A stretch of DNA of 64,000 bases from Micractinium sp. NFX-FRZ (Eukaryota; Chlorophyta; Trebouxiophyceae; Chlorellales; Chlorellaceae). Positions within the stretch are counted from its first letter, which is position 1, and each line of letters begins with the position of its first letter. The stretch lies in assembly GCA_029339195.1 (NCBI GenBank), contig JAPTJF010000371.1, positions 1 through 64,000 on the forward strand. The letters are read 5' to 3'. The notes below the pieces were generated by a model that was given only the letters and a program-made list of their open reading frames with translations, searched no databases and was not told the DNA's origin. Below are positions 86 to 62,581 of the stretch, in pieces. A program made the translations under genes and the position numbers.

Positions 86-2179
86 GCCCGCTGCAGCAGC
101 CGTGGTCGCCGCTGCAGTTTTGGGTGTTGTATGCGCTGCCTCTCGTCCCCGCCAGCAGCGCCACCGCCGAGCCACGCCGGCGGCAGGGCAAGCCGCAGCA
201 GGAGAGCTCTGGCACTGCACAGAGCCTGCTGCTAAGGTGCGACCTGGCTGCCTACCCTGGCTGCCCGCCCCCGCTGCCCCTGGTCGCCCTGTGTTGCCAG
301 CCAGCCTGCCTGCCTGGCCCGCCCCTGCTGCTGGGCGCCGCGCTCAACAGCGCAGCCTGCCTGCTCCCCGCCCCACCTCCCCCTGCCTGCCTGCCCGCCA
401 CAGGTGGCTCGCCAAGGTGGCAGTCACAGCAGCCATCGTGTTTTCTCTGCTCCACGAGGGCCTGCCGCCCCTGCTCCGAAGCCTGTGCTACGCCCTGGGC
501 ATCTACAGCATGCTCGGTGTCGTAATGGATGGGCCGGCAGCGCTCGTGCTGCGCCCGCTGCGCCTGCGCCTTGCCCCCCACTTCCTGCCCCCCTGGGAGT
601 CATCAGGCCTCCCCGACTTCTGGGGAACGAGGTGAGCCCCACAGCTTGGCTCGCAGCTGTGCCTCTTCTTTTGTTCGAGGAGCCCTGCAGTCTCCTGGCG
701 TGTGCAGTGGTTGGGTCAGCTCGCCAGGAAGCCTGCCTGCCTGGCAGCCCGCCTTACTGAACCAACCGGCACGGGTGCAAACAGTCGGTTGGCCTGGCTG
801 GGCGGGCAGGCCTTCCCTCCACCCACACCCCAGATGGTTGACCCCCAGTCGCCCGCCCTGCTGGCCGCTGCCATGCTGGCACCTCTTGGCTGCAGGTGGA
901 ACCAAGCGGCAGGCAGCGCATTGCGCACCACTATTTACGAACCCATTGTGGAGGGCCGCCTGCTGAGCTCCTCGCCCCTTGGCACCGCCGCCGCCCCTGC
1001 TGCCACCGCCGAGAAGGGCCGGCGGCGCAGCGCGCGGCTCGCAGCTGCAGCCGCTGGTGGAGCGGCGGGGCGCTCGGGTGGCAGCAGTGGTGGCGGGAGA
1101 AGCAGTGGCAGCCTAGCTGGCGCCCGCCTGGCGGGCATGGCAGCTTCCTTCCTAGCCAGCGGCTTGATCCACGAGCTCATCTTCTGGTGAGGCTGACCTG
1201 GCGCCAGCCGAGCTGAGCTCAGGGGTGTTGGCGGCCTGGCTCCTCAGGCTGTGCAGGCCACACAATGTGCAGTTGGGGGCGCCCATACCGCCTGTCTTTG
1301 TACCCGCTGCACGCCACCTGTTCGCGTGTTTGGGCTTGCACCCGCCGGCAAGCCCGCCTGCTGCAAGATGCACACGCATTTTGCTTGCGGTGCTTCTGAA
1401 CGGCCTGCCTGCCTGCCTGCCCGCCTGCCTGTAGGTATGTGCACGGCGCTGTCACTGACCGCCTGGCTTGGCTCTTCTTCTTCCTAGGCAAGGCAGATCG
1501 CCAGTGCTGCTGCCGCTGCCGCTGCTGCCGCTGCTGCGCTGCACATGTGCTGCTTGTGAGCAAGCCCCTGCTCACTGCTGGCTTACCGCTGCTGCGCTGC
1601 ACGCGTGCTGCTTGTGAGCAAGCCCCTGCTCACTGCTGGCATGCCGCTGTGCAGGCCAGGTGCCGCTGATCCTCGCCGAGCGCTGGCTGCTGGCCAAGCT
1701 CAAGCAATGCGGTGTCTCGGTGCCTCAGATGGCGCGCAGCGCTGTAACCCTGGTGCGCCTGGGGTGTGTGCGGGGCAGCAGGGCGTGAAGGGGAAGCGGT
1801 TGGGGTGGGGGCGGCAGAGGGTAGGGCAGGGTGGGGTGTGCGCCCACCACGGGGCGGGTACCAAGGCAGTTGATGGGTTGACCAGAATGCCAGCAGCACG
1901 TGTGACCTACACGACCTCCCCTGCCTGTCACATGGCCTGCATGTGCCCTAACCCTGCCAGTCCCCTGCCCCGCCCCAATTCGCTTCACGTGATTTCCTGC
2001 CTGCCTGCCCGTGCCCCCTGCAGTCTGTGCTGCTGGGCACCGCCCACTGCTTCTTCTTTGCGCCGGCAGAGGCGGCAGGAATGCCCGCCCTGTTTGCCGC
2101 CAGCATCCGGCAAGGCTTCTCTTCTATGGCATCCCACGCGGCTCAGCTGCTGTCGGCGGCTGGCCTCGGGCCCGCGTGA
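86..2179 (+). CDS. Wax synthase-like membrane-bound O-acyltransferase (5' end outside window)
   Basis: Exons 86-236, 404-631, 896-1186, 1435-1487, 1655-1752 and 2024-2179 join in phase and encode the last ~325 residues; the beginning lies left of the window. The family (wax synthase / long-chain-alcohol O-fatty-acyltransferase, MBOAT type) esterifies fatty acyl-CoA to long-chain alcohols or sterols in the ER membrane. Visible signatures are SGLPDFWGTRWN across the exon 2/3 joint (family pattern DFWxxRWN) and FLASGLIHELIFW, which carries the conserved His of the S/G-x-x-H-E motif. Several hydrophobic segments are present (WLAKVAVTAAIVFSLL, DRLAWLFFFLG, SVLLGTAHCFFFA). A low-complexity insert rich in Ala, Gly, Ser and Arg (about 980-1125) separates the two motifs, where family members usually have only a short loop. 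Intron 4 starts with GC (CTAG|GCAAGG). Substrate cannot be read from sequence. Confidence 0.8.
1533..1650 (+). repeat. Two-copy tandem repeat inside wax synthase intron 4
   Basis: A unit of about 56 bp (GCTGCGCTGCAC, then GTGCTGCTTGTGAGCAAGC, then CCCTGCTCACTGCTGGC) occurs at about 1533 and again at about 1589 with few differences, directly before the acceptor at 1654. It makes up most of the short GC-AG intron. Confidence 0.75.
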
Positions 2180-3281
2180 CCGTCCTTAAGAGTTTGCAAG
2201 GGTTGGTCTTGCCAGAGAGCTCCGTCTGGGCAGCCAAGTGGGGCCAGCACTGGCCCCTGCCGTGCTCAACTTCCTCTGCTACTGCCCCTTGCTTGGTTTC
2301 CGTAAACGCCGCATGCCATCAAGCAGCTCCCCTTGAGAGCACTGTGGCGCCTGGAGGGCGTCCCAGTCAGCCCTCCAAGCAGCCTATGCCTCTCGGCGGC
2401 GTGTCATGCAGGATCGGGGGGAAAGAGTGCTAGTGGGGGCAGGTGACCGGGGCAGTGGCAGGCCTTCTGAAGCAAGTGCTGTAGGTGTCGTCCATGCTCC
2501 ACGCGGGATGCAAGGGGCGGTCGCTGTGTGCTGTAGTGCACCCCAGGTGCCTTGGTTGGCGGCGCAATGGGATGAGCGCCGATGTGGGGGGTGGAGGGAT
2601 TGCATGACGCACCTTACCATCCAGGCGGGGGGTAGGGCGGCGGGGGCGGAGCCGCCGGCACCCGCAGCCACCCATGCAGTATCCAAGACCGGCCCGCGTG
2701 AGGGTCCAGGAGGAAAGGGGCTCTTTCTGCGGTTTTCAGGGAAGTGGGGGTCGACATCCGGCTCCAAGTCAGTTGCTGATCATGGGACGCCCGCGGCCAG
2801 CGGGGACACAAGCGACCGTCCGGGCCGTCCGATTGCTCCCTGATTGGCTAGCCTTTTGAAGCAGCGCGCCTCCCTTCCGCACACCTTATCACCCTCCTGG
2901 TCTGCCCTGCAGCAGGTGCTTGTGTCACACGGCCTGCCGCCCTCTCACTCTCGAGGGGTGTCCCTCCCCACGGCACACTCCTCGCGCGGCCCGTCCGTCC
3001 AGTGATAGCGCTTCCACCACTCACAATCACATTCTTGGGCGTGCCAGCGTCGCCCCGCCGGTGACGTCCGGCCAAACCTGGCTGTGCCATTGAATCACCG
3101 CCGCGGGTGAGCCAGGAGCGCTGCCACCAGCGCTCACACGCCCTGTGTACAAAGAGCATTGCCGCGGGACCTCGTATAGGTGGACGGAAGAGCACAAGAG
3201 AGATTGGGGCACTTGACTCCCTCACCAACCCGGCTCGCATCCCGCTCCTCGCCCCTCCCAAAGGTGCTCTCAGTGACACCG
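2180..3281. other. Intergenic: wax synthase 3' region and SBP gene 1 promoter
   Basis: No reading frame here has splice-compatible or family-like content. It should hold the 3' UTR of the upstream acyltransferase and the promoter and 5' UTR of the SBP-box gene. No clear TATA box or TGTAA polyadenylation signal was found. Confidence 0.5.
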
Positions 3282-6187: not shown

Positions 6188-6395
6188 GCCGCCCTGCGCT
6201 TGCCACACGCGCGGCCACAGCCTGAGCCAGCAGCCTCCTCGCCCCGCGCCCTCCAACCCTCCCACCCAGGCTGCCCCTCTCCCTGCCCCCCACGATATGC
6301 ACGCGCTCCACACCCGTGCCATGCAAGGCGCGTCATGTGCCCGCACCCCTTGCTCAAGTTGGCGGGCGGCGGCCCACCCATGCCCAAGCCTTCTT

Positions 6396-6491
6396 CTCTC
6401 CCCCTCCTCTCTCTCTCTCTCTTTCTCTCTCTCTCCTTCTCTCTCTCTCTCTCTCTCTCACTCTCTCTCTCTCTCCCTCTCCCTCTCTCCC
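6396..6491 (+). repeat. CT microsatellite
   Basis: Interrupted (CT)n tract followed by CCCTCTCCCTCTCTCC and a C run, in the SBP gene 1 3' region. Confidence 0.9.
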
Positions 6492-7546: not shown

Positions 7547-7551
7547 TGTAA
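7547..7551 (+). terminator. Possible TGTAA polyadenylation signal for SBP gene 1
   Basis: TGTAA is the usual green-algal polyadenylation signal. This copy lies about 1.36 kb after the SBP gene 1 stop codon, implying a long 3' UTR. One pentamer alone is weak evidence. Confidence 0.25.
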
Positions 7552-8298: not shown

Positions 8299-10478
8299 AT
8301 GTGTGGGCCGCTGCATGAAGATGCGGCTGGCGCGGGTGCAGTGCCAGGCCCCGCCTTGGGGGAGGCAGGTGAGCGGGAGTCGCTGGTGGAGAATACAGGC
8401 TTCTTGCCACGGTGAAAAGACGTCTTGCGGGAGTTGAGACAGCCATTTGAGGTTTCCAGGGGCTGGGGGCAGGGGGTGGAGGAGGGGAGGGGGTGCCCGT
8501 GACCTCCCCCTGTCCCAACAAGTGGTGGACCGCCACCTGCGGTGCTCACCGCCTCCTGCCCCTTGAACGCGTGCAGGCACGCCCTCCGCGGGCAGCACCG
8601 ACTCGGAGAAGGCGGCAGGGCCTGGCGATGCGCACCCCACGCCGCCGCTCCCAGCCGCCGCACAGCCGTCGCCGCGGCGGCGCGTCACCATCGACCGATC
8701 TGCGCTGCCCTGCCGCATCTTGGGGTGCGGGCAGCCGCTGCTGCAGGCCTACAACCAGGCAAGCGTGTGCGTGAGTGGGAGGGCAGGGCGCGCCCGCTGG
8801 TCGGCACCAACACCCGCCGTCTGCCACGCCCGCCCGCCGCCTCGGCTCCGCCGTACTGGTACTCCTGCCAGAGCCGTGATGGGCTACGTGGCTGGCAGGT
8901 GCTCCCTGGCCTTCTTTCCTGCCAACTGCCTCAACGCACGCCTCTGGCTGTGGCATCCTCGCATCTCCTACGGGTGCTGTGACCAGCATGTCATGGGTGC
9001 ACATCTGTTTGCCTGCCACTCTAGACTCAACAGCCGGTTGGCCCAGCCCCGCACCAGCATCTGGCAGCAGGTCCCGCACACCTCCATCCCCTGCCGCCCA
9101 GCCCAGGGCGCACACACTGCGCCCCGAGATAGGCGCTGCCTGCACCGCCCCGCCTGCACCCTCCACGTACCGTGCCTCAACCCATATTGCCTGGCGGCAT
9201 GCGTGCGTGACATGCCAGCCCGGCCCGCCCTCCCTCCCTCCCTGCCCCCCACCTGCAGACGCACCGCATTTGTGCCGAGCACCGCAGGGCACTGCACATA
9301 GAAACGGACGGGGCCGTGTGGCGCTTCTGCCAGCAGGCAAGAGGGAGGGATGGGCCATGTGTTTGGTCTTCCTTTGTGTGGGCGTGCTTTTGGGGTGCGC
9401 TTGTGCGCATGCCGACGGGCGGGGCAGTGTTGCGCTTCTGCCTGCAGCAGGCGAGAGTGAGGGGTGGGTATGTGTGTGGGCGGCGGGTGTCTAACGTGCA
9501 GAGGATTGGAGGGGGGGCAGTGGCTGTGTATCCGCCGTGAGCTGTGCGGTGGGCCCCACGAGAGAGAGGGAACTGGGGAAGGGTCCGAGTGCATATGGTG
9601 GAGGGCAATGGTGCTTCTGCCAGTCAGGTTGACCCACACATGGACAAGCCCGCGCACACACACACGCACGCGCGCATGCACGTGCCACATGGCGCACGCA
9701 TGGCATGGCACGAGCCGCCCTGCTGCCGGCCGGCACACCCTCTTCCCAGCGCGGTTGCGACTTCACACGGCATGCCATGGCCACCTCCCCTGCCTCTCCC
9801 TGTCTCTTGCTGGGTCTTACTGCCTGCCTGTTTTGCCCTGCCTCTGACTGCCCCTCTGCAGTGCGCCCGGCTGCACACAGTCGACCACTTTGCTGGGGAC
9901 AGGCGCAGCTGCCAGCTCAGCCTGCAGAGCCGGCGGGCGCGCATGCGGAAGCGGCGGGATGCCGAGAGCGCCGACAGCGCAGACACCACCTCGCCCTCGC
10001 CCCGCCCCGCGTCCCGGCAGCAGCGTGCGCGGCAGCACCAGGAGCAGCCGGCGGCGGCGGCGCAGCAGCAGGGGCAGAAGCCGCCGCAGCGCCCTCTGCA
10101 GCAGCCGCCGCCGCAGCAGCAGCAGCAGCGGCCGGCAGAGCGAGCAAGCATGCCTGTGGATGGCCCGCCGCCCCCCAGCAGCAGGGGGCGGGCACAGGCG
10201 TCGCAGCCTGCGCCATCTCAGCAGCTGCCACCTCAGCAGGCAGCTCCTTGGCAGCCGCCACCTCGGCAGCCACCACCTCAGCAGCTGCCACCTCAGCAGC
10301 AGGCAGTGCCGCCAGGCCTGACTCCTGAAGAGCGGGCGCTTCTGTCTGAGGTGGATCTAGCCAGCAGCCTGGCTGGTTCTGATGGGGGCGCGACGGAGCG
10401 GCTGCTGCGTGAGTTGCTGCTGCAGCAGGCGTCAGCGCTTGTGGCGCGCCCGCTGCAGCCGCCGCAGCCCAGCTGGCC

Positions 10479-10521
<43 letters not shown>

Positions 10522-12488: not shown

Positions 12489-14701
12489 ATGCGCGCCGCG
12501 GTCGCCTGCCTAGCGGCCCTGCTGCTGGCCGTTGCGCCCGCAGCCGATGCAGCCGGTGCTGTGGATTTGCGCCCGGCTGGCTGTGCCACCAACGCCTGCG
12601 ACAAGTGCGACGCCTATCCTCTGACAACGAAGGACCTCAAAACCCCCCTTGATCAAGCCTTCCCCTGCGGCAACGATGGCCTCTACTTCCCAGGTGAGTA
12701 TGGTTTAAGAGCAAAATGCATGGGATCCTGCTGGTGTGAGTGTTCTAGGCAGGGCTGCAGGCGGAGGCCGGGCGGCAGCAGGAGCGGGGCCTGTGCCAGC
12801 ATCCTTGCCCGGCCTGCCCAGCATCCTTGCCAGGTCGGGAGCTTATGAGTATGTGTACAGTAAGCCTCCTTGACGCGCGATGGGTGTGCCAACCTGCTGG
12901 GGTGGCGCCGCACCGATGCAAGCGCAGGAGGGCTTGGAGGGCAGCATCCTGCCCCGCCCGACATGCACGCTTCGTTGCCGCCCTCCTCCTCCCCCTCCCT
13001 CGCTGCAGTGCCCACCAAATTTGACGCAGAGTGCGAGACTGCCACCGCCACCGCCTGGCAGTGCCTGCCCTGCTGCTCTGGTAGGCATGCCTTGCTGCTC
13101 TGCCCTGCTGCTCTGGCGGTGCCTGCCTGCTGCTCTGGCAGTGCCTCCCCTGCTGTTCTGATAGGCGGCAGCGGTAGCGCACCGCTAGCCAGCCCGCCAG
13201 CCTGCCAGCCTGCCCATGCGGTGCATGCGCGCGTCCTGCATCAGATTCTCATGTCGCATCATTTCGTGCCACCCCACTCGAGGACAGCTCGCCTGAAATG
13301 TCAGGACAGCTCGTGGGCGAGTGCACTCCGGGGGGCCTTCCTTTGCATGCACGCAGCCTCACACCGCCTCATTACCCACCCGCCCCGCTGTCCCTCCCGC
13401 CTGTCCACCTGGCCTGACCTGATTGCCTCATTCCCTTGCCAGCACCTGGGCGTTTCATATCGGCGCCTGCCGGTTTGCCCAAGCTGCGTGCACACCAGCG
13501 CACCCACACAGCAAGTCCCCCCTCACCCCTCCTTCCCCGCCCCTCCCATGCCCCCCCTGCCTGCAGCCGGCTGCGCCGTGGGCGCCTGCCAGTTTGCCTG
13601 GAGCGGCAGCTACACCGGAACCCACGGCTGCGCCAAGTGCGCCGCCGGGAGCAAGGCACAGGAGCTGAGCCTTGCCCGGGAGACCTGCACGTAAGTGTGG
13701 CAGGGGTTTACCAGGGGATGACGGCGTGCCCTGGCGGTCTCGTATTTGTCCCCCGGTTCAGGAGGGTGACCTGGCGGGCGCCCTCACCTAGTCTTCGTTT
13801 AATGGTAATAAATACCCCCCTGCAGGACTGCAGGTCGACACGGTGCCCCAATCTGCACTTTCTGGCTCGACACTTGTGCTTTGCCCTGCGCCCCGCGCGG
13901 TCCGCCAAGGCACACACACACTGGGGACCCACAGCATCCCTGCCCACCGGGCACTCCCCCCCCCCCCTGCTGCAGGGTGTGCAACGGGGCGGATGGCGGC
14001 TGCAGCGCCGACGGCGGCAGCAAGTATCGGGGTGAGGGGGATGTGAGAGGGATGGTACTGCAGCGAGATTGATAGTGATACTTAGAGTGACAGTTGACCT
14101 CGTGGTAGTTGCAGGGACAGGGATGGTTGGAGGGGCCTTGAAGCGGCGGGCCCTGGGCGACCCGCAAGGCATGCGCCGAGGCGGTGTGCCCGTGAAGAAA
14201 GAGGGTGGGTAAGGCTGGGCAGCACTGACACGGCCCCGTCCGCTGCCTCTGCGCCACCTCACCGCCAGCCCCCTCTGCCCCCTCTACTCCCTCCCCTCTT
14301 GCGCAGTGTGTGGCGACGAGCCTCCGCCCACCACGGCTGCCCCTCCCCCGCCTGCACCTGAAGAGGAGGCCCCGCCTGCCCAGCAAGTCCGGACGACGGC
14401 CCCTTCGCCACCACCGGAGTTTGCCGCACCGCCCCCTCCCGAGCCTGCCAGCCCCCCTGCTGAGGCCGCTGCGCCCGCACCGGCACCCGAAACTGAGGCA
14501 CCCACACCAGCGCCTGAGCCGGCAGGAGCTCCGGAGGCTGCCCCAGTGCCCGTGCCAGAGCCCGCACCCGCCCCAGTGCCCGTCCCTGTACCCACGCCCG
14601 CCCTAGCGCCGGCGCCGGCGCCCTCCTCGGCGGCCCTGCGCTGCGTCCGCTGCCTGGCGCTGCTGCTGGCCGCTGTGGTGGCTGCCGTGCTGCTGGCCTG
14701 A
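12489..14701 (+). CDS. Cys-rich, Pro-rich secreted or membrane-anchored protein (unknown function)
   Basis: Exons 12489-12693, 13009-13080, 13567-13690, 13976-14031 and 14307-14701 join in phase to 283 aa. The N-terminus MRAAVACLAALLLAVAPAADA is a typical cleaved signal peptide. Next comes a Cys-rich region with CxxC-type spacing (CATNACDKCD, WQCLPCC, GCAVGACQF, GCAKCAAG, CTVCNG), then a long proline/alanine/glutamate tract of PAPEPAP type resembling an extracellular hydroxyproline-rich linker. The C-terminus is hydrophobic (CLALLLAAVVAAVLLA, then stop), which fits a GPI-anchor signal or terminal membrane segment. This layout suggests a cell-surface or wall protein. No named family was recognised. 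Intron 2 holds decayed copies of both flanking exon edges. Confidence 0.7.
13055..13166 (+). repeat. Exon 2 end of the Cys-rich gene copied into the intron
   Basis: The exon edge TGGCAGTGCCTGCCCTGC, TGCTCTGGTAGGC (13056-13086) is echoed twice downstream (about 13113-13140 and 13137-13166: GCAGTGCCTCCCCTGCTGTT, CTGATAGGC). Copies are tandem and decayed, and the donor GT is lost in the last. Confidence 0.7.
13436..13490 (+). repeat. Decayed copy of exon 3 start of the Cys-rich gene
   Basis: The intronic segment GGCGCCTGCCGGTTTGCCCA resembles GGCGCCTGCCAGTTTGCCTG of the true exon 3 at about 13580-13600, about 120 bp upstream of it. Confidence 0.6.
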
Positions 14702-20342: not shown

Positions 20343-20374
<32 letters not shown>

Positions 20375-21640: not shown

Positions 21641-21676
<36 letters not shown>

Positions 21677-26930: not shown

Positions 26931-26976
<46 letters not shown>

Positions 26977-44800: not shown

Positions 44801-47800
44801 TCGGCATACTCGCTCGTCCCAACTGCAGAAGCGGGAAGAGGAGGGGGGAGAATGCACACGGAGCGGCTCGTGCTCATGTACCAAATGGTTTGCCGCTGTT
44901 GTACTACCCCCAAAGACTTTGCTCCTGCAAACACCCACTCCCTTGCTTTGCTTTCAACATACACAGCCACGAGCAGTCACTCAAAAATCTCATCTTATCC
45001 TCTCACCTGCCAGCACCCCGTCCATCGCCAGCACCAGCTGCTTGAGGGAGTCGGAATCAGTTGCACCCACACAGCCTGCCGCCGCCAGCAGCGCCTCGGC
45101 GGCCGCCGCCCTTATGGCGCCGTCCGCCCCCAGGGGCACCCCGCTGCAGCCCACCAGCCCCAGGGGCTGTGCCGCATCCGAGGTGCACCCGGGCAGGTCG
45201 GGCAGGCAGGTGCGGGCGCCGCCCAGCACGCCCTCAATCTGTGCGGGGGGGAAAGGGGGCGGGACGGGGCGGGGCAGGGGTGGGGTTGTGCAGAAGCGCC
45301 TATCTGTGGTGCAACAGTCTGGGCGGGTCGGGCAGGCAGGTGCGGGTGCCCCTGGTGCCGAGCTGGCACCGAGCTGGCGCCGAGCCGGCGTTGATCTGGC
45401 GCTGAGCTGGCGCAGCCGCTGCGCTGGGCCCAGCCCCTCGAGCCGCTCACATCCCACCACCCCCCCAGCCCACAGGCAGACCAGCCACAAGGGAAAAGTG
45501 TGGAGAAGCAAGGCACATGCAAAGTAGAAACCCATTACCTGCAGCAGCAGGCCCTTGAGCAGCTCGCGTGGCACCTCCCCCGCGCCGCTGAGCTGGCGCA
45601 GCTGCTGGGCCGGGCCCAGCAGCATCGCCTGCACCAGCTCCTGGCCCAGGGCCACCTGCGCAGGCAACAGGGGGTGGGTAGCAAACGAGCTCCATGTGAG
45701 TTGGCGGTTTTGAAAGCTTGGCTTGGGCCCAGCAGCAGGGCCTGAAAGCAGACCCCGCCCCAGGGCCGCTGGCAAGAGGGATGACGCGGCAGTCAGCGGG
45801 GACAGGCGGCGGGGCGGGCAGGCAACCGGCAGTCTGAGGGAATCAGGGGGAGGGGGAGCAATCAGGAGAAGAACACCGGACCCGCCTGCCAGCCCAGCCA
45901 GGCAGGCGGGCCACCCCCCAGCAGGGCCCTCCCGATGCGACCCCCCGGGTGCCTCCTCACCTCCTCGGCTGCCGGCTCGTGCCACGTCAGCGGCTGGCTG
46001 CACCCCGACCCCAGCTTGTCCACGCAGCACTCGATGAACAGGCCCTCCCCTGCAGGCACAAGCAACGAATGAAGACACGGCAGGTGTAAGGGCGGGTCCT
46101 ATACTTACAGGGGCAGGCCAGGTGGCGTTCGAAGGGGCATGCATTACCCGCACCATACAACATACTGTAAGCCAAAACAGAAGACCACCCAGGTCGTAGA
46201 CGTCGTTGCACGCGTCGGCAAAAGACCAGCAGGCCCACCCAAACCTCAGCTTCCACTTGTTATGGTTAAACTCGCATACTTGTAGTGCCTCGCCCACTTA
46301 CCCAGGTCGTAGACGTCGGTGCACGTGTCGTGCTGGTTGGTGGGGTAGATGCCCAGCAGGCCTGACAGCATGCTGCCCACCGCACGCGCCGTCGCCTCTT
46401 GCACCGACTGCAGGTGGGAGGCACAGTGGGCCAAGGGAGGCGGGGGAGGGGGCGAGGATTGGGATCAAAGCGTGCACAGGGAGGTCAGTAGCCCTGTGGG
46501 CAGGCGGGTGCAAACAAGTCGGCTGGGCAGCGTCCCGTGCGTGCGTGCACCGCTGGTGCTTGCAGCGCAGCGCCAGGGGGCGGGAGCGGCCCGTCATGCG
46601 CGTGCGCCCTGCTGGCAAGGGTTGTCGGCGGTCGCTGCTGGCCAGCCGTCGCCACCTGTCACGCTGTCACCCACACGACCGCACACCCCCGTGCTATGCT
46701 GCGCTGTGCCATGTCTTGCCTGGGAGGGCGCCGCCGCCAGGGCTGTCACGATCTGCAGTATCTGCGGCTTGAACGCCGCCAGGGCGGGGCCCGTGCGGAA
46801 GGCTGTGGAGCTCAGCAGCCCCAGCCGCCACTGCAGGGAGGCCTCGTGCGCCTGTGGGCAGAGGTTGAGGAGGCGGGCAAGAAAGAAAGGAAGGAGTGAG
46901 CGTGCCTGGGAGCATTCGTGAGAAACAAGGAGCGCGAGGGCAGCAGTAGCACGGCCCAGGCGCCACTGCAGGGAGGCGTCGTGCGCCTGTGGGCAGTAAG
47001 CAGGAGGGCGAGAAGGGGGACAGGCGAAAGCCGGCAGCCCTGCTACGGTGGGCGGGAGCAGCAGAACCCAGCAAGCCTAGCAGGCCTTAGCCTTTACTGC
47101 AGGCATGTGGGGTGCCGTCTGCTGTGGCAGCTGGCGGGCAGGCCCCACAGCAGCCGCCCCACCCGCTCAGCCAGCCCGCTTGTCAACCTGGGCGCACCTT
47201 GGATAGGCGTGTGGTGCCGTCGGCTGCAGCGGCTGGCAGGTCCCGCTGCAGCTGCTCCACCAGAGGTGCCAGCAGCGCCTGCGCGGTGCCCTGCACGGCG
47301 GGAGGGGGCGGGCAATGCACGCAGCACGGGCAGAGCGCGTTGATGCAGGGTGACACTGGCTCGCAGCACAGGTAGCGTGCAAAAACGTGACCGCAGCATT
47401 GGCAAGGCACTGGCTGTTGTGAAGGAAGCCAGCCAGGGAGGCAGAGCCAAAGGGAATCAAGCCATCAGTCAATCAATCAATCAATCACACACACCCACCT
47501 GCGGGTCGGCCCAGGCCACAGCGTTGCACAGCACCGAGGCCTCAGCCCCCACAGAGGTCAGCGTGCTCTCCAGCAGGAACTTGGCCACCCGGCGCACCGC
47601 TGAGCGGCGCAGCGGGGGCGGCAGGCGGGCGAAGAGGAGCTCCATGAGCGGCCTGTGAGGCAAGGAGGAAGAGAGGCATGGGCGACCTTGTGTTCTGTGC
47701 GGGGGAATGTTGCAGGGGAGCGGCGCAACAGGAAAGGCAGGCGGGTGAACAGGAGCTCCAGCAGCGGCCAGTGAATTGGAGAAGGGGAGGAAGAAAAGGG

Positions 47801-50800
47801 ATGTGCTGGGGTTGGAAGGATACAAGCTGCCCCGAATGCATGCGACGGAGCGGGGCAGCGGGGGCGGCAGGCGGGTGAACAGGAGCTGCAAGAGGGGCCT
47901 GTGCGGGCCCAAACTCGATTCCTCAGCCCCTCCAGTGCCGCGTCCTCCGTGCACATCCCACCCTCTAGCAGAACCAGCCCCGTACCCCACCTGAACATGG
48001 AGTTGGAATCCAGCAGGAAGCTGCCCTCCTCCATGGCCAGCTTCTGCCCCTGGGCGCCGTGCTCGCCTGCGGGGCGGGGAGGGGCGACGCATGTCAGCGC
48101 GCGGCCCCCATGCGTGCGTGTGTGCAATGATGGCAACGCATCCAGGCAAACATGCGTACAGTTGAAACCACCACAGGGATCACAGCATGAGACCAGAGCA
48201 TGCTGTGCACAGCACCACGATCATCACCTGTGCTCCCGCACAACACATGCTGTTGCCTGCCACACAATTGCAAGCAAACCCACCTCTGTGCTCCGGCGAG
48301 TCCAGGTTTGTGATGATGGCAAAGCAGCGGCTCAGCAGCTCCTCCACCCACTCCTCGGTGTACAGCGGTACCGCCGGGGTGGGCGACTCCTGCGCGTGTG
48401 GTAGGCAGGGTGTGGGCGGGTGGGATGGGGTGTGTGTAGGTAAAGCGAGGGAGGGAGCATGAGATATAAATGGAGTGTCCACCCACTGCTTGGTGTAGCG
48501 GGGCACCTACTGCTGGCAAGGGGAAATGCAGGCCTTGTCAGGTAGTGGGAGGTGCAGGGCCGTGACAGAAAATGTGTGGGACCCACTCCTCGGTGTACAG
48601 CGGTACCGCCGGGGTGGGCGACTCCTGCGCGTGTGGTAGGCAGGGTTGAGGGAGGGAGCACGGAACAGGGGACGTCAACCCGTGGGGGTGGCGACCGCTG
48701 ACGAGGCGGTGTGAGGGGTGGAGGGAGCGAAGGGCGCGAACGCGCTGGCAGCCTGTGCTGCCCAGGACCCGCTTCCCGAAAACTGCACGGCGCTGCCGGC
48801 ACACGCACAGCAGCATACACACATGCGTACGCGCACGGGCGCGGCGCGCACCCGCCCAAGGCACCACCACCGTGAGATAAGACTTATAGAACTGATGAGA
48901 TCCCAGCCTACCGGCAGCTGGCCGATGCTGCCCAGCACGCAGCAGTAGAAGCGGAAGGCGGCCAGGCTCTTTGGCTCGTCGTTGGCGTCGATGCCCGGCA
49001 GGGTGGCCATCAGGGCTGCGTATCAAACCATACAGTCAAACGGGCACGCAGTGGTGGGATGATGTGTGCCATGCCAGGCCCAAAGCAAACAAGAGGCAGG
49101 CAGGAAAGGAAGCTACGCGTCGGTGGGACCTCTCTGCCCACGCCGTGCTCAGCCCACAGCACGCCACACCCTTTAGACAAACGAGATCAGAGCCGCGCAC
49201 AAGGCGCCCCACCTGAGACGCCGCCAGGAGCCGCTGCCCGTGGCCCCCCTTCACCCACCCACCCACCCCACCCCCAGCCCCCAACCATGTGCGCCACGCG
49301 ACAAAACCGCTGCCAGCCAGCAGGGACCCGACAGCAGAAACGAAAGCACGGCAGCACACCTGACACAAACGAAAGCACTCAACTCGCCACTCACATCTCC
49401 CCACTGACACTCCAAGCCCCCAGACTCCTACCTGAGGCCACAGCCTGTGCGGCCGCCACCCGCTGCTCCTCGCTAGCGGGGGCCACGTGCGCCGCCAGTG
49501 CCGCCGCCACGCTGTCTTCTGCCGCCGCTTCAGAGAGGCCGGCGGTGAGCAGGGGGCGCACGCACAGGCTGAGGGTCTGCAGTGGAAGAAGGGGCGAAAC
49601 AGGGTTGGTCGATTGCTTGATTATGGGTTGTTGAGAGGCCAGCGATGAGCAGGGGGCGCAGGCACAGGCTGAGCGTCTGCAGCAGGAGCAGGGGCGATTG
49701 CTCGATTACAGAGGACGTGGAGGAGGGTGATTGTAGGGCTGCGGCCACTGGGACCTGAAGGCCCCGCCCAACAGGCTGACCAACCAATCAGCTGGGAAAT
49801 GCTGACGTGGAACCTTGCTGACATGGCGGGGTGACGTGGCGGCAGGCTGACGTGGCGCACCTGGATGGCGGTGCCCAGCTGGCTGGCGGAGGTGACCGTC
49901 TCCAGAGCCGTGGTGAAGTGCTTGTGCACGTGCGGCTGCAGCGACAGGGTAAATAAGTGAGTGAACAGACATTCTTGGACATCACTTGTGCACATGCTGC
50001 TCCCTTCCTTCATTCTTTATGACACAACCAGTCGAGCAAGGGCGAGTGCGTGCATGGGGGGCTGCCTGGCAGCCACGGCTCACAAACTGGGTGGAGCACC
50101 AAGAAAAAATGCTGCATATTCCTCACGACATGCACATGCCACAACCCCGGCCATGCCCCTCCTCACAATGGGAGCAGCACCAAAACAAGACGAGTGCACA
50201 TGCCACAACCAATCAATCAATCAATCAATTACATTTCAAGTCCACAGCACATGCGCATGCCCCGCCTCACCAGCACAAGATCGGGGGCGAGGTGCGCCAG
50301 CGCAGACAGCACCTGGCTCGCCACGCGCGCGCTGCCCTTGTCCTGCAGGCAAGCCCACAAATTGGGGTTGTTTGTCAGGTCCGCTCCCTGATCTTGGCAG
50401 CCGCATGCCCGCTCCTAGATCAACACAACCGGGAGGAAGGATTGCAGATGCAAAACGCCGTGCCTGCGCCGGAGCCAGCGTATGTGGCAGCGCTCTGCGC
50501 TACGCTGCACCCACCTTATTAACCACACACACTGCCGCTGAGTTACTTTGTTTGTTATCATCAAACCAAAGACAGAACACCTGCTCACCTTTGCAAACTG
50601 CGCCTTCTTTGCCAGCCGCACCAGCAGCGCCGCCACGGCGCGGCGCATGGGGGCGCCCATGTGGCGCCGGGCGGCCGGATGCGCCCCCGTCTTGGGCGGT
50701 ACCGCCGCCACCTCTTCGTCTGTACTGCTGGTATCCTCCCCCCCGCCGAACCCGGACTGCGGGCGGGCAGCAGCCAGCAGGGCACTGGCGCCCTCCTCGC

Positions 50801-53800
50801 TGCCGCCGTCTGTAGGTGGGTGCATAGGTTGGGTCGGTGGATATGGGTTAGAAGGTGTGGGGGGGTGGGCAGTGCGCGGCCGGCAGGGGTGCGAACAGGG
50901 GGAAGGGGGAATGCAATGGCCGTGCGTGCTGCGATGGGAATTTGCACAATTGCTTGCAGGCAGGGCAGGCAGGCAGGGCAGGCAGGCAGGCAGCGCGGGG
51001 CCGGACGGCCAACTGGCGGGCCGGCACACAGGCTTCCAGTCGTGTGCCAAGAAGTGATTCCAAGCACGCAGTGGAGAAGATTCATGGTTCATGATTCAGG
51101 TTCATGGCCTGTCCCACCGCACCTGTGGCGGCGTCCTCCATCCCAGCATCCTCCATGTCATCATCAGTGTCTGCAAGCAAAACGAGAGACTCAATAACAT
51201 TAGGCGTCACCTTTGTGAAAGTGAACAGAAGCCATGTACCATGTACGATGCCTTTGTTAGAAGCGAGCACAGGGGGGGGAGGGGGGGCATGTCGACTTTG
51301 TTGCACCTCCAGCGCTTGCAACCTTTTCAAGAGCCCCCCGAATTGCCGCCGGAGCGCTTTGACAGCTATCCATAGTCAAGATTTGCCACGTTATACGCTG
51401 CTGGAGCACGCAACTGGCATGGCTGCCCCCCGGTTGGGACACACCTGAGTCGCTGCCGGAGCGCGCGTTGATGGCGGCATAGTGCTCCGCCACCAGCCGC
51501 TTGCACAGGTGGTGCGTCGCCTCGCGCATGAAGTTGGACAGCGTGCCGCTCCACCTGCGAGGCAGTACAAGGCAATACATACTGGCAGCGTGAGCGGTAC
51601 AGCGGTGCGCCGCCTCGCGCATGAAGTTGGACAGCGTGCCGCTCCACCTGCGAGGCAGTACAAGGCAATACAGTACTGGCAGCGTGAGCGGTACAGTGGT
51701 GCGCCGCCTCGCGCATGAAGTTGCAGAGGCTGCCGCAACTTGCCAGGGGGGTACAGCTGGTGGAGCGTGCACCACCCTTGCTGGCTAGCTGCCTGTTGCC
51801 GCTGCCCTGTATGCATCTGTTGGAAGGGTTGCCAGGTCGCACACTGCCCCCCCACATGTTATGGCCACCCCGCACAAGCCAGCAGGCATGCCACCAGCTG
51901 GACCGCCACCGCCCTCACCTGCCGCTGTTGGAGGGGTGGTAGTACTGCTCCAGCAGGTTCACCACAGCTTCCAGGTGACCCAGCACTGCGGGAAACGGGG
52001 GGGCCACATGGTCAAAGCCAGGGCCCAGGTAGTGTGAATAACGAGGGCATAATCGTCTTGCCCCTGCCATGCAGCCGAAAGAAGGAGGACGAAAAAGAAG
52101 AACACAACAAGCAGATTTGAGATGTCAGCAACCTCACCCGGGTCCTCTGCTGCATTGCCAGCCTCACAGCTGCCGGGTACACACACTGCACATTTAGATG
52201 CAATGTAAGCATTATTATCTATCATAATTATAATGCAAATTAAGCAACCCTCACCCGGGTCCTCTGCGGGGTTGCCGGCCTCATGGCTGCCCGGGGGCCC
52301 GGCCCGCCCCAGCAGGTAGACTGTTGCCTTGGCAATGCAGCTGCTGCGGCTTTCCTGCTCCGCGTTGAACAGCAGCTGGCAGAGGCCGGGGGCGGGGTAG
52401 GCTGCAGGGGAGAGGGGGAGGCATGCACAGGGGCCGGGTGAGACGACACAGTGGGGCAAGCCGTGGGGCGAACAGTGGTGCATCTGCTCTGCTCGACGTT
52501 GAATAGCAGCTGGCAGAGGCCGGGGGCGGGGCAGGCTGCAGGGGAGAGGGGGAGGCATGCACAGGGGCCGGGTGAGAGGACAAAGTGGGGCAAGCAGTGG
52601 GGCAAACAGTGGTGCATCTGCTCTGCTCGGCGTTGGAGGCATGCACAGGGGCCAGGTGGGGCCAGGGACGGGGCAAGAAAGTAAGGGAAGAAGTGGGCTG
52701 CGGGTCTTTGGCTCAGCAGCAACCAGCAGGCACCAAACAGGAGGCACAGGAGGCTCTGCAGTGCTAGTGTGCACCCGCCTCGCGCCTGCCCCGCAAAAGC
52801 AACTCCCGACCATGCCAGAACCCTGCCAGAACCCTGCCACAGCCGGTGCTGCGTGCGCCCCCGCTGATCTGGCAGAGCTCTTCCAGCACCGTGCCAGCAC
52901 CCTGCCATTGCCAGCAGCCGGCCAGAACCACGCCATTGCCGGTGCAACCACCGCCCTCCTGCAGCTGCAGGCCACTCACAAAAGGGAGCGGAGCCGGAGG
53001 CTGCCCCCACCGGCACCTCGAACGCCCACATGAACCGGGTGAACAGCTTGGGTAGCAGGGCGGGCCAGTCCACCAGGCCTGCAACACGGCACAGAAGGCA
53101 AGGTTGGTATGTTGGGTGTTAGGGTAGGGGAAGGGCAGGTGGCACGCGAGTCCCTTCAGGTGCAAGTGAGAAATGGAACAGGCAAGGCAAACAACCGAGC
53201 AGCCGTGAGGCAACCACCCTGCACAGCTTGCCGCCACCCGCTGTGCACGCTGTGCTTGGCCAGGCGTGAGAGGAGGGGGTACCATTGTGATCCCCGCACA
53301 AGTAACAAAAGTCAAACCTTTTAGATGACAAAAAGGCAGCACCCACCCTGCACGTCGTGCTTGGCCAGGCGCGAGAAGAGGTTGTACCAAAGCGAGTCCC
53401 AGTACCGGCAGTGGTCCAGCTGCTGCAGTGCGGGAAGGCGGCAAGGGGCAATGCGGTGCACAGTTTAGTCAGGGCGGCACACAGCCCAGCACGGCCCAGC
53501 GCAGCACAGCAGCGCACAGCGCAACAGGGCGCAGCAGCAAGGAGCAACACGGTGCCATGCAGTGAGGGCAGCAGAGGGCCCAGCACGGCCCGGAGCAGCA
53601 CAGCACAGCACGGCGAAGCGCAGCGCGGCACAGCACAGCACAGCGCGGCACTCGCCTGCCACAGCTGCAGCCACTGCGGCGCCCACTCCCCCCAGCTGCC
53701 CTCGCCCCGCAGTGCCTCGTGCGTCGGCAGCAGCATGGCCAGCCAGCCCAGGGCCTGCAGCGGTGGCAGGGTGGTTGGGTAGCAAGTCAACATTACTTTT

Positions 53801-56458
53801 GGGGAACAAGCGCGCAACTTTGTGCGGGGGCAGCAGCATGGCCAGCCAGCCGAGCGCCTGCAGCGGGGGGCACATAAACAAAGACACAGATCAAGAAGCG
53901 TGTTCAGTGCCGCGCTTTTACGCAGCAGCAGCGCCAGCCAGCCGAAGGGCACCCACCCGCCCCCTCCGCCCACAACCGCGCCACACCACAACCAACAACC
54001 ATGCCCCCTTCCCACGCCAGCCGCACCTCGAAACACTCGGGGCGCTGGGGGTCGGAGAGGGCGGGCGCAAAGTGGGCCCAGATCTCGGCGGCCGAACCCT
54101 GGGGGAAGAAGCGGCGGCAGCGGTGCACAAGGGTCACCAGGGACTGGTGGCGGGCCTCCGCCACGCCGCCGCCTGCAGGGGACAGTTGACAAAAAGGTGA
54201 GGGCAACTGAGGGCTTACAAGGGGGAGCAGCGTATCGGTTCCAGTTTGTGGCGGAGGCCGCCTTTCGGGAGACAGCGCCTGAGGTGGGAAACCTGAGAGC
54301 TCAACAGGATCGAAGGGGTCCCAAGCGGGAAGCAGGGCACAGCACAGCGCAGCGTGGCACAGCGCAGCACACCCAAGGCTTGGCTCCAGTCCAGTGACCA
54401 GCACAGCACAGCACAGGGCAGGACAGCAGGGTGCAGCACAGCGCAGCACAGCACCCACCCTCATAGGCTGCGCTGGGCTCCATTCCGTAGCGGTGCATCA
54501 TGAGGTACAGCGGGCGCCAAGGCACTACAATCCTGCGGTACAGCATGAGGAACAGCGGTGTAGCATGAGGCACAGCGGGCGCCAGGGCACCACAATCCTG
54601 CGGTACAGCATGAGGAACAGCGGTGCAGCATGAGGCACAGCGGCGCCAGGGCACTACAATCCTGCGGTACAGGCGGACAGGAGCACAGCGTGAGGCGGCA
54701 GGCAGCAGTCTCGAGCGTTTGACGGCAGTGAAGCGCACCGGCACTGTATGAACGGGTTCTGTTTGCAAACAAGCAGCCCACATGCGGAACCTTTGCTAGG
54801 TGGAGCAGCTCAACTTGCATCGTTCTCTGCCCTGCCTGAGCGGGCCTGCAACGCTGCTGACGCAAAAGTCGAAAGAGCAAGCAAAGGGGACGGCAGCCAC
54901 ACTCACTTGAGCTTGCGGCGGTGCACGCGCAGCAGGCGGTGCAGCTGCTGCGCCCAGCGGACCTGCACACAAACAGAGGGTTGCGACACACGAAGAGGAA
55001 GTGTCATGCATTAGAAAAGCGACGAACCAGGCAGCTGCTCCGCCCGGCTGACCTGCAACACGATGGCAGGGCAGGAGGCTACAGGCAAGCCTTGGCCGGG
55101 CACATGCTCAAGCCTGGCTGCAGCCTCCCTCCCAGCCACTCCCCCCTCCTCAGCCGCCCACCCACCCGCCCACCCGGCACCACATGCGTCTGGCAGGGCT
55201 GCCAGCACGGGTGTCCAACAAATAAGAGGAGCTGCCCACCCCCAAGCGTATCTGTCGTCGTCCCCTGACTGTCGTGCCCCTGCTTACTTGATTACCTTCA
55301 GGCACCCACCCACCCACCCACCCCCCACCCTTCACCCTTCACCCCCCTAGCACAAAAAGCACACACCCTTTATCCCCGGAGCACCCTCAGCTGACTACAC
55401 AGCCCCGCCCACCTGCGGCACCAGGTCGTCCCGGCACGACAGCACAATGTCCAGCAGCAGGGAGGCAAACTGCTGCAGGACAGCCGCCTCTGGTTCCGCG
55501 CGCGCGTTGATCAGGCTGCGGGGCGGTGGGTTGAAGGGAGTAGGGAGAGGGGAGGGGGGGGAGAGGGGTGCAGCAGGGGTTGACAGGAATAAAGTTGACC
55601 AGCGAGGACATTAAAGAAAACGGGTTTTGTAGAGCCAGCCTGGTCAAGCTGGCGCGGGAACAGCTTCTCACAGCCTTCAAAGAAGACGGGTGACTTGCAA
55701 ATACCAGGCCAGGCAGAAGGGACGGGCCACTTCAGTAGGCCAGGCAGAAGGCGCATCATCGTAACTGTGCCCTCTGCGCTGCGCGCCCTCAGCCCCCAGA
55801 AAAGAACGCAACGAACGAGCGATAAGGCTGCGCAAGGAACGCACCCAGGTGCTAGGACTCACCACTTGGCTGCACAAGGAAAGTAACCAGGTGCTAAGAC
55901 TCACCATTTGGCCAGGGGGACAAAGGGCAGGGTGGCCTCTGCTGCCGCTGCCACGCCGAGCTCGGCCTTGTCGCGGTCCCACTGCTGCTGCAGGTGGGCC
56001 ACCAGCGCTGCATACCGCTTGGGCTCCTCTGCAGCCGTGGCGTGTGAGTGATAGTGTGCCAACGTTAGTGTGGTAGTGAGATAGGACGGGTGGAGGGCAG
56101 AACCAGCGCAGCAAGTAGCGGGCAACATGGCAGGGGCAAGGTGGGGAGGGCGAGGTCGGGGCAGGGGATGCAGGGTGGGCGCTGGGAAGGCGCTGGAAGA
56201 GCGGCTGCGGCGGGCGCCAGGTCGGGGCTGTGCAAGCGGGGCAAGCTTCTGCCACTGCCTGATCCAGGCTGTCTTGCTCTGCCATGGCACATGCGGACGG
56301 CTCTTGGCAGCAGGGCGGTCCCCGGTGCAAAAGCAACGCGGCACAACAGTGCCCGGGGAAGGGCGGCCACACGCTGGCGCCGTCACCGCTGCCACACCTG
56401 TGCGGATCTGCTCGGCCTGCGCCGCCGGCAGCCAGTCATTCCACACACACGGCGCCAT
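32815..56458 (-). CDS. PSME4: Proteasome activator PA200 / Blm10 (PSME4 homologue)
   Basis: A 23.6-kb minus-strand gene of about 54 short exons, from the ATG at 56458 (MAPCVWNDWLPAAQAEQIR) to the TGA at 32815. PA200/Blm10 is a nuclear HEAT-repeat solenoid that caps the 20S proteasome and opens its gate. Diagnostic segments include VPWRPLYLMMHRYG near the N-terminus, LLPKLFTRFMWAFEVPVG, LLEQYYHPSNSGRW (human: YHPSN.GRW) and the C-terminal DUF3437 region: RHAVVLGLKAFVLSTPYHVP, WLPEVLMALVRLAPEPPPLR, TSVTKTLAEFRRTHEEAGLS, LLTSEQWEAIRDVASPASYF, V, stop. Expected length is roughly 2,100 residues, longer than human PA200 (about 1,840) because of acidic, Ala-rich and Asn-Gly inserts. The last three residues are YFV where animal PA200 has YYA. 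Many introns carry decayed exon-edge copies, and at least five have GC donors. It is head-to-head with TAF9. Confidence 0.9.
33132..33724 (-). repeat. 206-bp higher-order tandem array in a PA200 intron
   Basis: Copies of the penultimate exon's acceptor edge (minus strand CTGCAG or CCGCAG then GACGAGCGTGAC) start at 33132 (true exon), 33223, 33338, 33429, 33544, 33635 and, degraded, 33719. Spacing alternates 91 and 115 bp, so two unit types form a 206-bp dimer repeated about 2.5 times. The dimers are nearly identical to one another, which points to recent amplification. Confidence 0.88.
35405..35555 (-). repeat. Two extra copies of the PA200 LLGRP exon edge
   Basis: GGCCGGCCCAGCAGGCAGAT, GTGCCTGCAAG at about 35413-35443, and GGCCGGCCCAGCAGGCGCAC, GTG at about 35524-35546, parallel the true exon edge GGCCGCCCCAGCAGGAAGAT, GTGCCTGCAAG at 35296-35326. 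Confidence 0.75.
36048..36098. repeat. Interstitial telomere-like repeats in inverted arrangement
   Basis: GGGTAGGGTTAGGGGTTTAG, GGTT is followed after CACCC by AAACCCTAAAACCCTAAA. These are degenerate TTTAGGG-type units pointing toward each other inside a PA200 intron. Shorter fragments occur at about 34008-34028 and 43048-43060. Confidence 0.7.
43408..50343 (-). other. PA200 exon map, middle part
   Basis: Approximate exons on the minus strand: 50343-50273 (DKGSARVASQVLSALAHLAP); 49935-49861 (PHVHKHFTTALETVTSASQL); 49576-49434 (TLSLCVRPLLTAGLSEAAAE); 49014-48913 (ALMATLPGIDANDEPKSLAA); 48387-48287 (VPLYTEEWVEELLSRCFAII); 48068-47993; 47652-47502 (PLMELLFARLPPPLRRSAVR); 47291-47199 (GTAQALLAPLVEQLQRDLPA); 46851-46725 (GC donor); 46409-46302 (SVQEATARAVGSMLSGLLGI); 46050-45960 (GEGLFIECCVDKLGSGCSQP); 45658-45540 (VALGQELVQAMLLGPAQQLR); 45239-45007; 44821-44555; 44260-44139 (AAYRWWASLDMPAPTLAAVP); 43929-43812 (EVREAAVSLLERAVKRYPCL); 43500-43408. 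The repeated amphipathic helices fit HEAT repeats. Confidence 0.65.
47466..47487 (+). repeat. AATC tetranucleotide repeat
   Basis: Short (AATC)n run in a PA200 intron. A similar run occurs at about 50210-50229. Confidence 0.85.
51521..51724 (-). repeat. 93-bp tandem array of a PA200 exon edge
   Basis: The block CTCGCGCATGAAGTTGGACA, GCGTGCCGCTCCACCTGCGA, GGCAGTACAAGGCAATACA starts at 51521 (true exon WSGTLSNFMREA, minus strand), 51614 and 51708, periods 93 and 94 bp. The second copy still has an intact acceptor and frame; the third is truncated after the exon part. Confidence 0.88.
52401..52660 (-). repeat. ~134-bp tandem copies of the PA200 PGLCQLLFN exon edge
   Basis: GCTGCAGGGGAGAGGGGGAG, GCATGCACAGGGGCCGGGTG begins at 52401 (next to the true exon) and at 52535, each preceded by CAGCTGGCAGAGGCCGGGGG. 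A third, shortened copy ends near 52660. Confidence 0.82.
54498..54680 (-). repeat. 65-bp tandem array of the PA200 VPWRPLY exon start
   Basis: CATGAGG, ACAGCGGGCGCC, CACTACAATCCTGCGGTACA recurs at 54498 (true exon), 54564 and 54629. On the minus strand each extra copy still reads like TACCGCAGGATTGTAGTGCC, so acceptor-like CGCAG sequences persist. Confidence 0.85.
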
Positions 56459-56925
56459 GACGACCTAGCTGAACGGCCGCGCGCTTCCAAGGCCGGGTAG
56501 CGCCGAAATAAAAGGTGCAAACTTGACGGAACCCGCCGGGCTGCGGGCGGTGGCGCCGCCCAGCCGCGGGCAGGCGGCGAGGGTTTGGGGTATGCCGTGG
56601 TCCCGCTGCGCTCCGCTCTAGGGCTGACTCGATTGCGAGGATTACTGCACGCCCTTCAGCTGCCTCCAAGGCCTTCACCAGGCCTGCGAGACTTGGTGAT
56701 CGGCAGACAGGAGCACAACAACTTCAAGCCGGCGTTGACCCAACAACTTGGGCTCGATCGACTTCGGTGGCAATAGCCCTCTCCGGCGTTTCGGCCAAGG
56801 TGTGGCAAAAACTGCTGAGTTGGCAGCCGGCCCGCTGGTGCTGTCGTTTCGGGGGTCTGCATGCTCCTGCTGGCGATCTAACAATAGCCAGACCTCGCTC
56901 ATAAACTCTAAAGTTGCTTGCCGAC
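56459..56925. promoter_or_regulatory. Shared head-to-head promoter of PA200 and TAF9
   Basis: 467 bp separate the divergent start codons of PA200 (minus) and TAF9 (plus). Both genes are broadly expressed housekeeping types, consistent with one bidirectional promoter. No individual motif was recognised. Confidence 0.4.
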
Positions 56926-61964: not shown

Positions 61965-61999
<35 letters not shown>

Positions 62000-62581
62000 G
62001 TACTGTGCCTCACGTGCCTGCTGTGCCTGCTGTGCTGCACGTGCCTGCTGTGCCCGCATGGCTTGATCCTCTGCCTGGCACTGCAGCCGGCACTCCTCTT
62101 CTGTGAAATCCTGGATCATCTGCACCAGAGCAGGGAAGCATGCAGGCACGGGCGACGTCAATAGAAGCAGGCAGCAAGCTGGGCGCCTATGCAGCAGGGG
62201 GTCCAACTCCTCTTTTATGAACTCCTATATCACCTGCTCACGGCAGGCGCAGGAAGGCATGGGGGAGCATAAGCGTCACGCCACAGCAAGCAAGTCAAGA
62301 GGGGATAGGTACCCCCTATCTCAACGAAAGTATGCACCCGCCAAGACCAACAATAGGACATTAAAGCGCTGGGCAGGGGTAAGGCGGGCAGGAGGAGTTT
62401 GCAGGCAAGCAGAGAGCAAGCGGCAGGCAAGCGGGGGTGCGGGAGGGTGCGGGAGGTGGTGTGCACACCTCCCGCACAAGCAGGCGAGCGGTCAAAAGCG
62501 GTGGCCGGTTGAAAGGGCAGGCAGGGGCGCACTTGCCTGCTCGCACTCATCCCAGAAAGGGGAGGCGGGTGTGATAGACAT
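60181..62581 (-). CDS. Q-rich coiled-coil protein of unknown function
   Basis: Exons 62581-62537, 62119-61169, 60976-60878 and 60537-60181 (complement) are all phase 0 and give 483 aa. The N-terminus MSITPASPFWDECEQ joins MIQDFTEEECRLQCQAEDQ, a compact Cys/acidic segment that looks conserved in type but matches no family I recognise. It is followed by a 12-residue poly-Q tract, alternating QHAQ/QQAQ repeats, a (QG)5 run, and a long charged coiled coil (EEWEALQQRRQQEWERRRQA, EEFERQRRQQRAAWEQQRRM). The last exon is Pro/Ser/Ala-rich. No signal peptide or membrane segment is visible. A nuclear or scaffold role would be a guess. Introns 1 and 2 have GC donors (CAG|GCAAGT both times). Exon 3 starts at a CAGCAG acceptor, so one Gln is optional. 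Confidence 0.68.
62206..62243 (-). repeat. Decayed copy of exon 2 start of the Q-rich gene
   Basis: Plus-strand ACTCCTCTTTTATGAACTCC, TATATCACCTGCTCAC parallels the true exon edge ACTCCTCTTCTGTGAAATCC, TGGATCATCTGCACC at 62092-62126. The frame now contains a stop. Confidence 0.75.

Follow-up and report, generated by a model that had tools for sequence, protein, structure and literature searches.

The introns of a 64-kb stretch of the Micractinium sp. NFX-FRZ genome (contig JAPTJF010000371.1, positions 1 to 64,000, hereafter the window; GC content about 65%) hold copies of the edges of their own neighbouring exons. The window carries the gene for the proteasome activator PA200 (Table 1) and, among others, genes that an earlier note on this DNA had named AsmA-like, OEP24-like, Cys-rich, mTERF-like and Q-rich; we keep these names. 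Pfam gave no family for the predicted AsmA-like, OEP24-like, Cys-rich and Q-rich proteins, nor for the open reading frame at 15285-16022. The probable mTERF-like region (14702-16479) has no gene model and stands outside the copy counts below. Two SBP domains (3384-4046 and 8705-9891) were merged by our gene finder with an MBOAT_2 (wax-synthase-like) gene; the merged wax synthase/SBP/Cys-rich model probably represents separate genes.

The window was analyzed together with 17 other loci (227 kb in total, 0.34% of the 66-Mb, 838-contig genome). It should be noted that the window is part of the sample because exon-edge copies had first been spotted there. Gene models, resting on sequence alone, were predicted by a small self-trained splice-aware finder, trained on the window and the 17 loci with a Chlamydomonas codon table as its starting point. 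The predicted set comprises 39 genes, 447 exons (median 103 bp) and 408 introns (median 268 bp). Acceptors in all predicted models are strongly TGCAG, and the trained donor matrix has about 15% GC in place of GT, some of these GC donors possibly being finder errors. Introns of at least 240 bp are strand-asymmetric, with G falling from 0.51 at the start to 0.28 over 200 bases, and pyrimidines climbing from 0.52 to 0.75 toward the acceptor. The PA200 model runs through its 58 exons without internal stops; its closest named relatives are in Micractinium tetrahymenae (77% identity over 81% of the query) and Chlorella vulgaris (70%), with whose proteins 44 and 41 of its 57 junctions, respectively, are contiguous.

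To count edge copies, the first 45 bases of each exon were compared with its own upstream intron and the last 45 with its own downstream intron, with a main cut-off score of at least 36; the full list, at a score of at least 30, holds 76 matches. A copy in direct orientation was found in the exon's own intron for 48 of 763 junctions tested (28/383 acceptor edges and 20/380 donor edges), where 0.0 were expected from unrelated introns of matched length. Inverted copies were seen in own introns at 0/763 junctions. Exon interiors, 45-90 bases in, matched introns in 0/130 and 1/127 cases at the same score, and in 4/130 and 3/127 at a looser score of 30. The copies are therefore real and far above chance, and the excess over unrelated introns bears out the central observation of the earlier note, as does their range from near-identical to barely recognisable (identity 0.74-1.00 over the 76 matches). 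That note had also placed copies of acceptor edges upstream of the exon and copies of donor edges downstream. They were indeed seen in these positions, but the arrangement is imposed by searching the adjacent intron alone.

The copies are unevenly shared among the window's genes, which the note had taken to be affected in nine cases out of eleven. This figure is too high: at a score of at least 34, 26 of the 34 window copies lie in PA200, where they occupy 23 of 57 introns, the others being one in SBP, one in the Cys-rich gene and two each in the AsmA-like, OEP24-like and Q-rich genes, both Q-rich copies sitting at least 29 bases from the exon edge. The histone H1 and TAF9 models have no edge copy at this score. 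The repeats previously cited for TAF9 (57914-57985) and wax synthase (1528-1649) are wholly intronic in the predicted models, and that of the gene at the window's edge (63749-63949) is a 102-bp coding tandem duplication, exon to exon, at 94% identity. With the edge offset limited to 25, copies were present at 24/114 PA200 junctions vs. 35/702 elsewhere (p = 1.1e-7); other limits gave 20 vs. 31 (offset up to 8) and 26 vs. 38 (no limit). Per junction, PA200 has about four times as many copies as the other sampled genes, and its introns are only slightly longer (median 288 vs. 264). Copies also occur beyond the window, at 29/570 junctions vs. 30/246 within it (score at least 34, edge offset up to 25), with 6 of the 17 other loci having none at a score of at least 34.

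Table 1. The PA200 gene and the exon-edge copies located in the window
Feature	Position	Strand	Details
PA200 (proteasome activator 4/Blm10)	32815..56458	-	own model, 58 predicted exons, at least one spurious (51621-51647)
Acceptor-edge copy, exon 48284-48389	48581..48646	-	66 bp, 100%, offset 235, unrelated flanks; older decayed copy between
Whole-unit tandem copy, intron end and start of exon 52255-52401	52489..52635	-	134 bp, 94%
Tandem acceptor-edge copies, exon starting 51554	51580..51736	-	93-94 bp units; 51621-51647 falsely called exon
Acceptor-edge copy, exon starting 46851	46948..46996	-	offset 135; own pyrimidine tract and AG
Donor-side copy, exon ending 47198	47107..47163	-	11 bases from edge; same intron as 46948..46996
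Acceptor-edge copy, exon starting 53754	53822..53869	-	offset 103
Tandem acceptor-edge copies, exon starting 54532	54554..54672	-	65-bp period
Acceptor-edge copy, exon starting 49576	49633..49697	-	offset 100
Donor-edge copy, exon ending 52255	52132..52177	-	offset 117; donor GTGAGG intact
Donor-edge copy, exon ending 53347	53244..53284	-	offset 105
Acceptor-edge copy, exon starting 47652	47848..47898	-	offset 246
Donor-edge copy, exon ending 46302	46187..46217	-	offset 113
Donor-edge copy, exon ending 44144	44028..44083	-	offset 115
Whole-unit tandem copy spanning acceptor, exon starting 41845	41905..41995	-	91 bp, 84%
Acceptor-edge copy, exon starting 38778	38850..38890	-	offset 112; further copy at offset 205
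Donor-edge copy, exon ending 36859	36743..36787	-	GC donor; offset 110-111
Acceptor-edge copy, exon starting 35317	35413..35444	-	offset 119
Acceptor-edge copy, exon starting 34754	34831..34870	-	offset 98
Donor-edge array, AsmA-like gene, exon end 21797	21775..22105	+	124-bp block repeated at offset 207, 98%, unrelated flanks
Acceptor-edge copy, exon starting 23677	23548..23612	+	offset 130
Tandem array spanning acceptor, exon starting 24240	23959..24275	+	129-bp unit
Acceptor-edge copy, exon starting 26656	26520..26551	+	offset 128
Copy spanning acceptor, exon starting 27391	27263..27346	+	offset 97, 77%
Donor-edge copy, SBP-domain exon ending 9336	9415..9450	+	offset 111
Donor-edge copy, Cys-rich gene exon ending 13080	13135..13166	+	offset 80

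The copies could serve in transcripts as alternative exons or exon edges; the finder called two or three of them as exons and their splice sites are partly intact. We consider this very improbable. Most of the indels separating copy from exon are of a single base (31/38), multiples of three are not favoured among the offsets, and copy-bearing PA200 introns (score at least 30) align without extra residues in 21/26 cases against M. tetrahymenae and 22/26 against C. vulgaris. Copy and exon differ by about 12% overall, with 8.8%, 10.5% and 17.4% at codon positions 1, 2 and 3, respectively (64 pairs), the pattern to be expected of a freely changing copy beside an exon that varies mainly at third positions. 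The one-base indels and the alignment of PA200 with its relatives indicate that the intronic copies are non-coding, in agreement with the earlier note, which had also foreseen that such copies can mislead gene prediction: segment 51621-51647 was called an exon against the evidence of both PA200 relatives. The exon calls at 21978-22004 and 9448-9450, the latter of 3 bases, are likely false too.

In the full list of 76 matches, 48 start no more than 3 nt from the junction. The matches extend into the exon by a median of 44 bases (acceptor) or 43 bases (donor), and include a median of only 4 (acceptor) or 1 (donor) intron bases past the junction. The median offset between copy and edge is 119 bp. 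Local direct repeats in general peak at a similar offset (38/86 pairs at 80-139 bp), a count made under a complexity filter so strict that real pairs were lost; a Markov control gave 1 pair in all vs. the 86 real ones. Several copies can occupy one intron (locus L011 at 1042, locus L014 at 171 and the window at 38778), and three PA200 introns carry both donor-side and acceptor-side copies (score at least 34). At L011 1042-1372, a donor edge is followed by three copies, at offsets 93, 234 and 333, in a single 660-bp intron. Repeats of other kinds were also noted, including a 206-bp unit present 2.5 times at 98% in a PA200-model intron (33130-33653), with 91/115-bp sub-repeats, and a coding array of units of about 45 bp in a predicted exon region (L018 2514-2955).

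The description of these sequences as decayed tandem copies holds in part. Some pairs are whole-unit tandem repeats, with a spacer of less than 30 bp past the shared part (4/53 pairs, plus the array at 24240; examples are 52401, 41845 and 24240; a further comparison bearing on the whole-unit cases covered 41 pairs with a score of at least 34, an edge offset up to 8 and an offset up to 150), but in most the DNA between the copies barely aligns. An offset equal to the intron length, the signature of intron gain, was seen in 1 of 76 matches, at 9337, in a doubtful model with a 3-nt exon. We rejected intron gain at 9337-9447, the 3-nt exon that follows adding a residue absent from the window's other SBP domain.

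Splice junctions are probably not special targets for duplication. Under a common low-complexity filter, which removed 100/763 edges and 8/48 edge matches, intron-interior 45-mers have a second copy in their own intron nearly as often as exon edges do (71/1764 vs. 40/663, with interior pairs and arrays counted more than once). By calculation, 49-61% of random duplications of 100-135 bp that touch an intron would span one junction. A junction-spanning duplication would be expected to stay visible longer, its exon half being held constant. Since any tandem copy extending into the intron begins with the exon's edge, exon interiors hardly occur in introns.

We also considered whether the edge alone might have been copied, by templated insertion or a repair process akin to target duplication, with the spacer as new or unrelated DNA. 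The block edges are sharp and their flanks unrelated, homology often ends near the junction and most spacers are unalignable, all as such an insertion would predict. The surroundings of the copies, however, argue otherwise. In the 30 bases above 29 acceptor copies, outside the shared bases, pyrimidines make up 0.69 vs. 0.53 at the same distance in copy-free introns (27/29 higher), and below donor copies G reaches 0.374 vs. 0.292 (17/23). The AG is retained in 22/29 acceptor copies and GT or GC in 12/21 donor copies (score at least 32, edge offset up to 5). The pyrimidine-rich context and the retention of AG suggest that the copies sit behind relic splice sites and were not pasted at random; random pasting of exon edges into introns was set aside on the basis of this composition. 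A random insert would rarely carry a working splice site. Since the spacers also show homology that is weak but significant (see below), we regard templated insertion as unlikely.

The spacers were compared in 53 pairs (score at least 32, edge offset up to 8), 49 of which have a spacer of at least 30 bp. Spacer homology reached p ≤0.05 in 13/49 cases and p ≤0.01 in 2/49. Simulation at a divergence of 0.10 per lineage recovered homology in 48/49 and the real data fit a value of about 0.35, compared to about 0.10 for the copies at first and second codon positions. Among 13 strong pairs (score at least 60, edge offset up to 12), 12 have a spacer, and homology (p ≤0.01) was detected in 1 of these vs. 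473/480 in simulations at equal age. The 12 strongest copies should not be lucky survivors of old ones. Similarity of the spacers does not track the identity of the copies (Spearman 0.11, n = 49). With composition controlled, however, spacers resemble their own locus more than others: the median z was 1.02 for acceptors and 1.40 for donors, vs. 0.10 and -0.04 between loci (p = 0.0145 and 0.0009, respectively), which weakens the idea that the spacers are wholly non-homologous. Spacers that are unalignable and yet remotely homologous, in a relic splice context, suggest old duplications with younger exon blocks. The copies thus seem younger than their flanks, a pattern that gene conversion, templated insertion or constraint would all give.

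These data bear directly on the explanation offered in the earlier note, a tandem duplication spanning the junction and, after it, nothing but neutral decay. Such a duplication accounts for the position and orientation of the copies and for the whole-unit cases, and the copies do change about as fast as the exon itself does at third positions. The spacers should then still align, as they did in 473/480 simulations and in only 1 of the 12 strong cases; copy and spacer thus seem to differ in age. Nor would one expect a 66-bp copy at 100% identity with unrelated flanks. We therefore hold decay from a single duplication to be distinctly improbable. The more general proposal, that introns have absorbed tandem duplications across junctions, is upheld by the direct-only orientation, the relic splice context, the remote spacer homology and the whole-unit cases. 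In the pair at 48346/48581 the identical block consists of 22 intron and 44 exon bases. The 124-bp block of the AsmA-like array comprises the edge, a spacer and an older edge copy, and at 21775/21982 similarity falls to background at both block ends, the distal end being, by eye, an edge-type repeat. Both pairs look like re-copying between members of an array.

Purifying selection at the RNA level, with copies kept, for example, as decoy or helper splice sites, would also leave copies less diverged than spacers, and per lineage they seem about 3.5-fold less so; many retain AG or GT/GC in splice-like surroundings. These dinucleotides (22/29 and 12/21, respectively) are, however, no better kept than the rest of the copy, single-base changes predominate among the indels (31/38), and change at the copy's first and second positions is near that of the exon's own third positions. 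We judge this explanation distinctly unlikely.

The reading we tentatively favour, at somewhat short of even chances, is that the copies derive from old tandem duplications whose exon block was later re-copied from the exon by short-tract gene conversion. Short tandem duplications, mostly with offsets of about 80-140 bp, would arise in the genes of this alga, and one that spans a junction would yield the order spacer'-edge'-spacer-edge. This geometry and the non-coding decay are seen in the sequence itself. Splicing would continue to use the copy beside the intact exon, presumably with selection behind that choice, leaving the extra edge in the intron. The spacers would then diverge nearly past recognition, with the exonic block staying recognisable because the real exon is conserved. 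Short-tract gene conversion, or template switching during break repair, may re-copy the exon edge onto the old intronic copy, sometimes bringing a few intron bases with it; the age of the copy would be reset and the diverged spacer left unchanged. Wholly intronic duplications occur too and would fade about twice as fast, making exon edges look favoured.

Several points weigh against this proposal. Conversion is deduced, from the sequence of a single genome. Where the PA200 exon departs from both outgroups (11 sites), the copy has the outgroup residue in 3 cases, that of the exon in 5 and neither in 3; the first 3 indicate that conversion is neither universal nor always recent. Pure conversion should also produce isolated intron-intron pairs, and no such pair (identity at least 0.93, unrelated spacer) was recognised outside arrays in the intron-intron list. 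Lastly, spacer homology at single loci is weak, with 13/49 at the p ≤0.05 level, and the spread in copy divergence is modest (chi2/df 1.29).

A further step, possible but in our view doubtful, is that exons act as standing templates, conversion continually rewriting their edges and splice signals into intronic relic copies. If so, the introns of intron-rich algae would hold a self-replenishing stock of near-identical decoy splice sites and edge variants, which could return changes to the exon. If the re-copying of old duplications is right, a local and measurable process would account for some of the lengthening of introns in these algae and for some of their spare splice sites, and introns would keep datable records of duplication beside constrained sequence. 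The mismatch in age between copy and spacer makes it possible to test directly for short-range conversion between an exon and its own intron.

Where tandem copies undergo ectopic gene conversion, they are homogenised while their unlike flanks diverge. What would differ in the alga is that the sequence is donated by an exon edge under constraint and received by an intronic relic, mostly of about 20-65 bp. Within the sample, we found no sign of introner elements: 245 cross-locus spacer pairs scored barely above shuffles (mean z 0.24 and 0.13; 9/245 above 2.5). Among the literature matches listed, mainly open-access, there was no account of edge copies in existing introns at such density, nor of spacers older than the copies beside them. 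Small tandem duplications arise in human and mouse cells when CST and Pol alpha-primase fill in 3' overhangs (PMC8355091). This provides a general route to such duplications at DNA breaks, and the consulted part of that account is silent on any later re-copying of an exon block. In Drosophila, novel intron positions are described that stem from tandem duplication (PMC2891723), and intron gain of the Rogers type, by duplication of an AGGT-containing exon segment (as described in PMC4974935 and PMC2891723), likewise involves tandem duplication near splice sites. The new intron is there the size of the duplication, whereas this is true of only 1/76 matches in the alga, and a doubtful one. Junction-spanning duplication itself is already known from the RdRp gene of potato (Ma, Lan and Niu 2016, PMC4974935), where, according to the part of the study consulted, the tandem genomic duplication has a unit composed of the 3' side of an intron and the 5' side of the next exon, with the pyrimidine tract and 3' splice site, much as in the alga. 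In potato, a new intron and an inserted exon were created, whereas in the alga the extra copy remains inside an intron that was already there. This is seen at many junctions, and divergence in the spacer usually far exceeds that in the copy.

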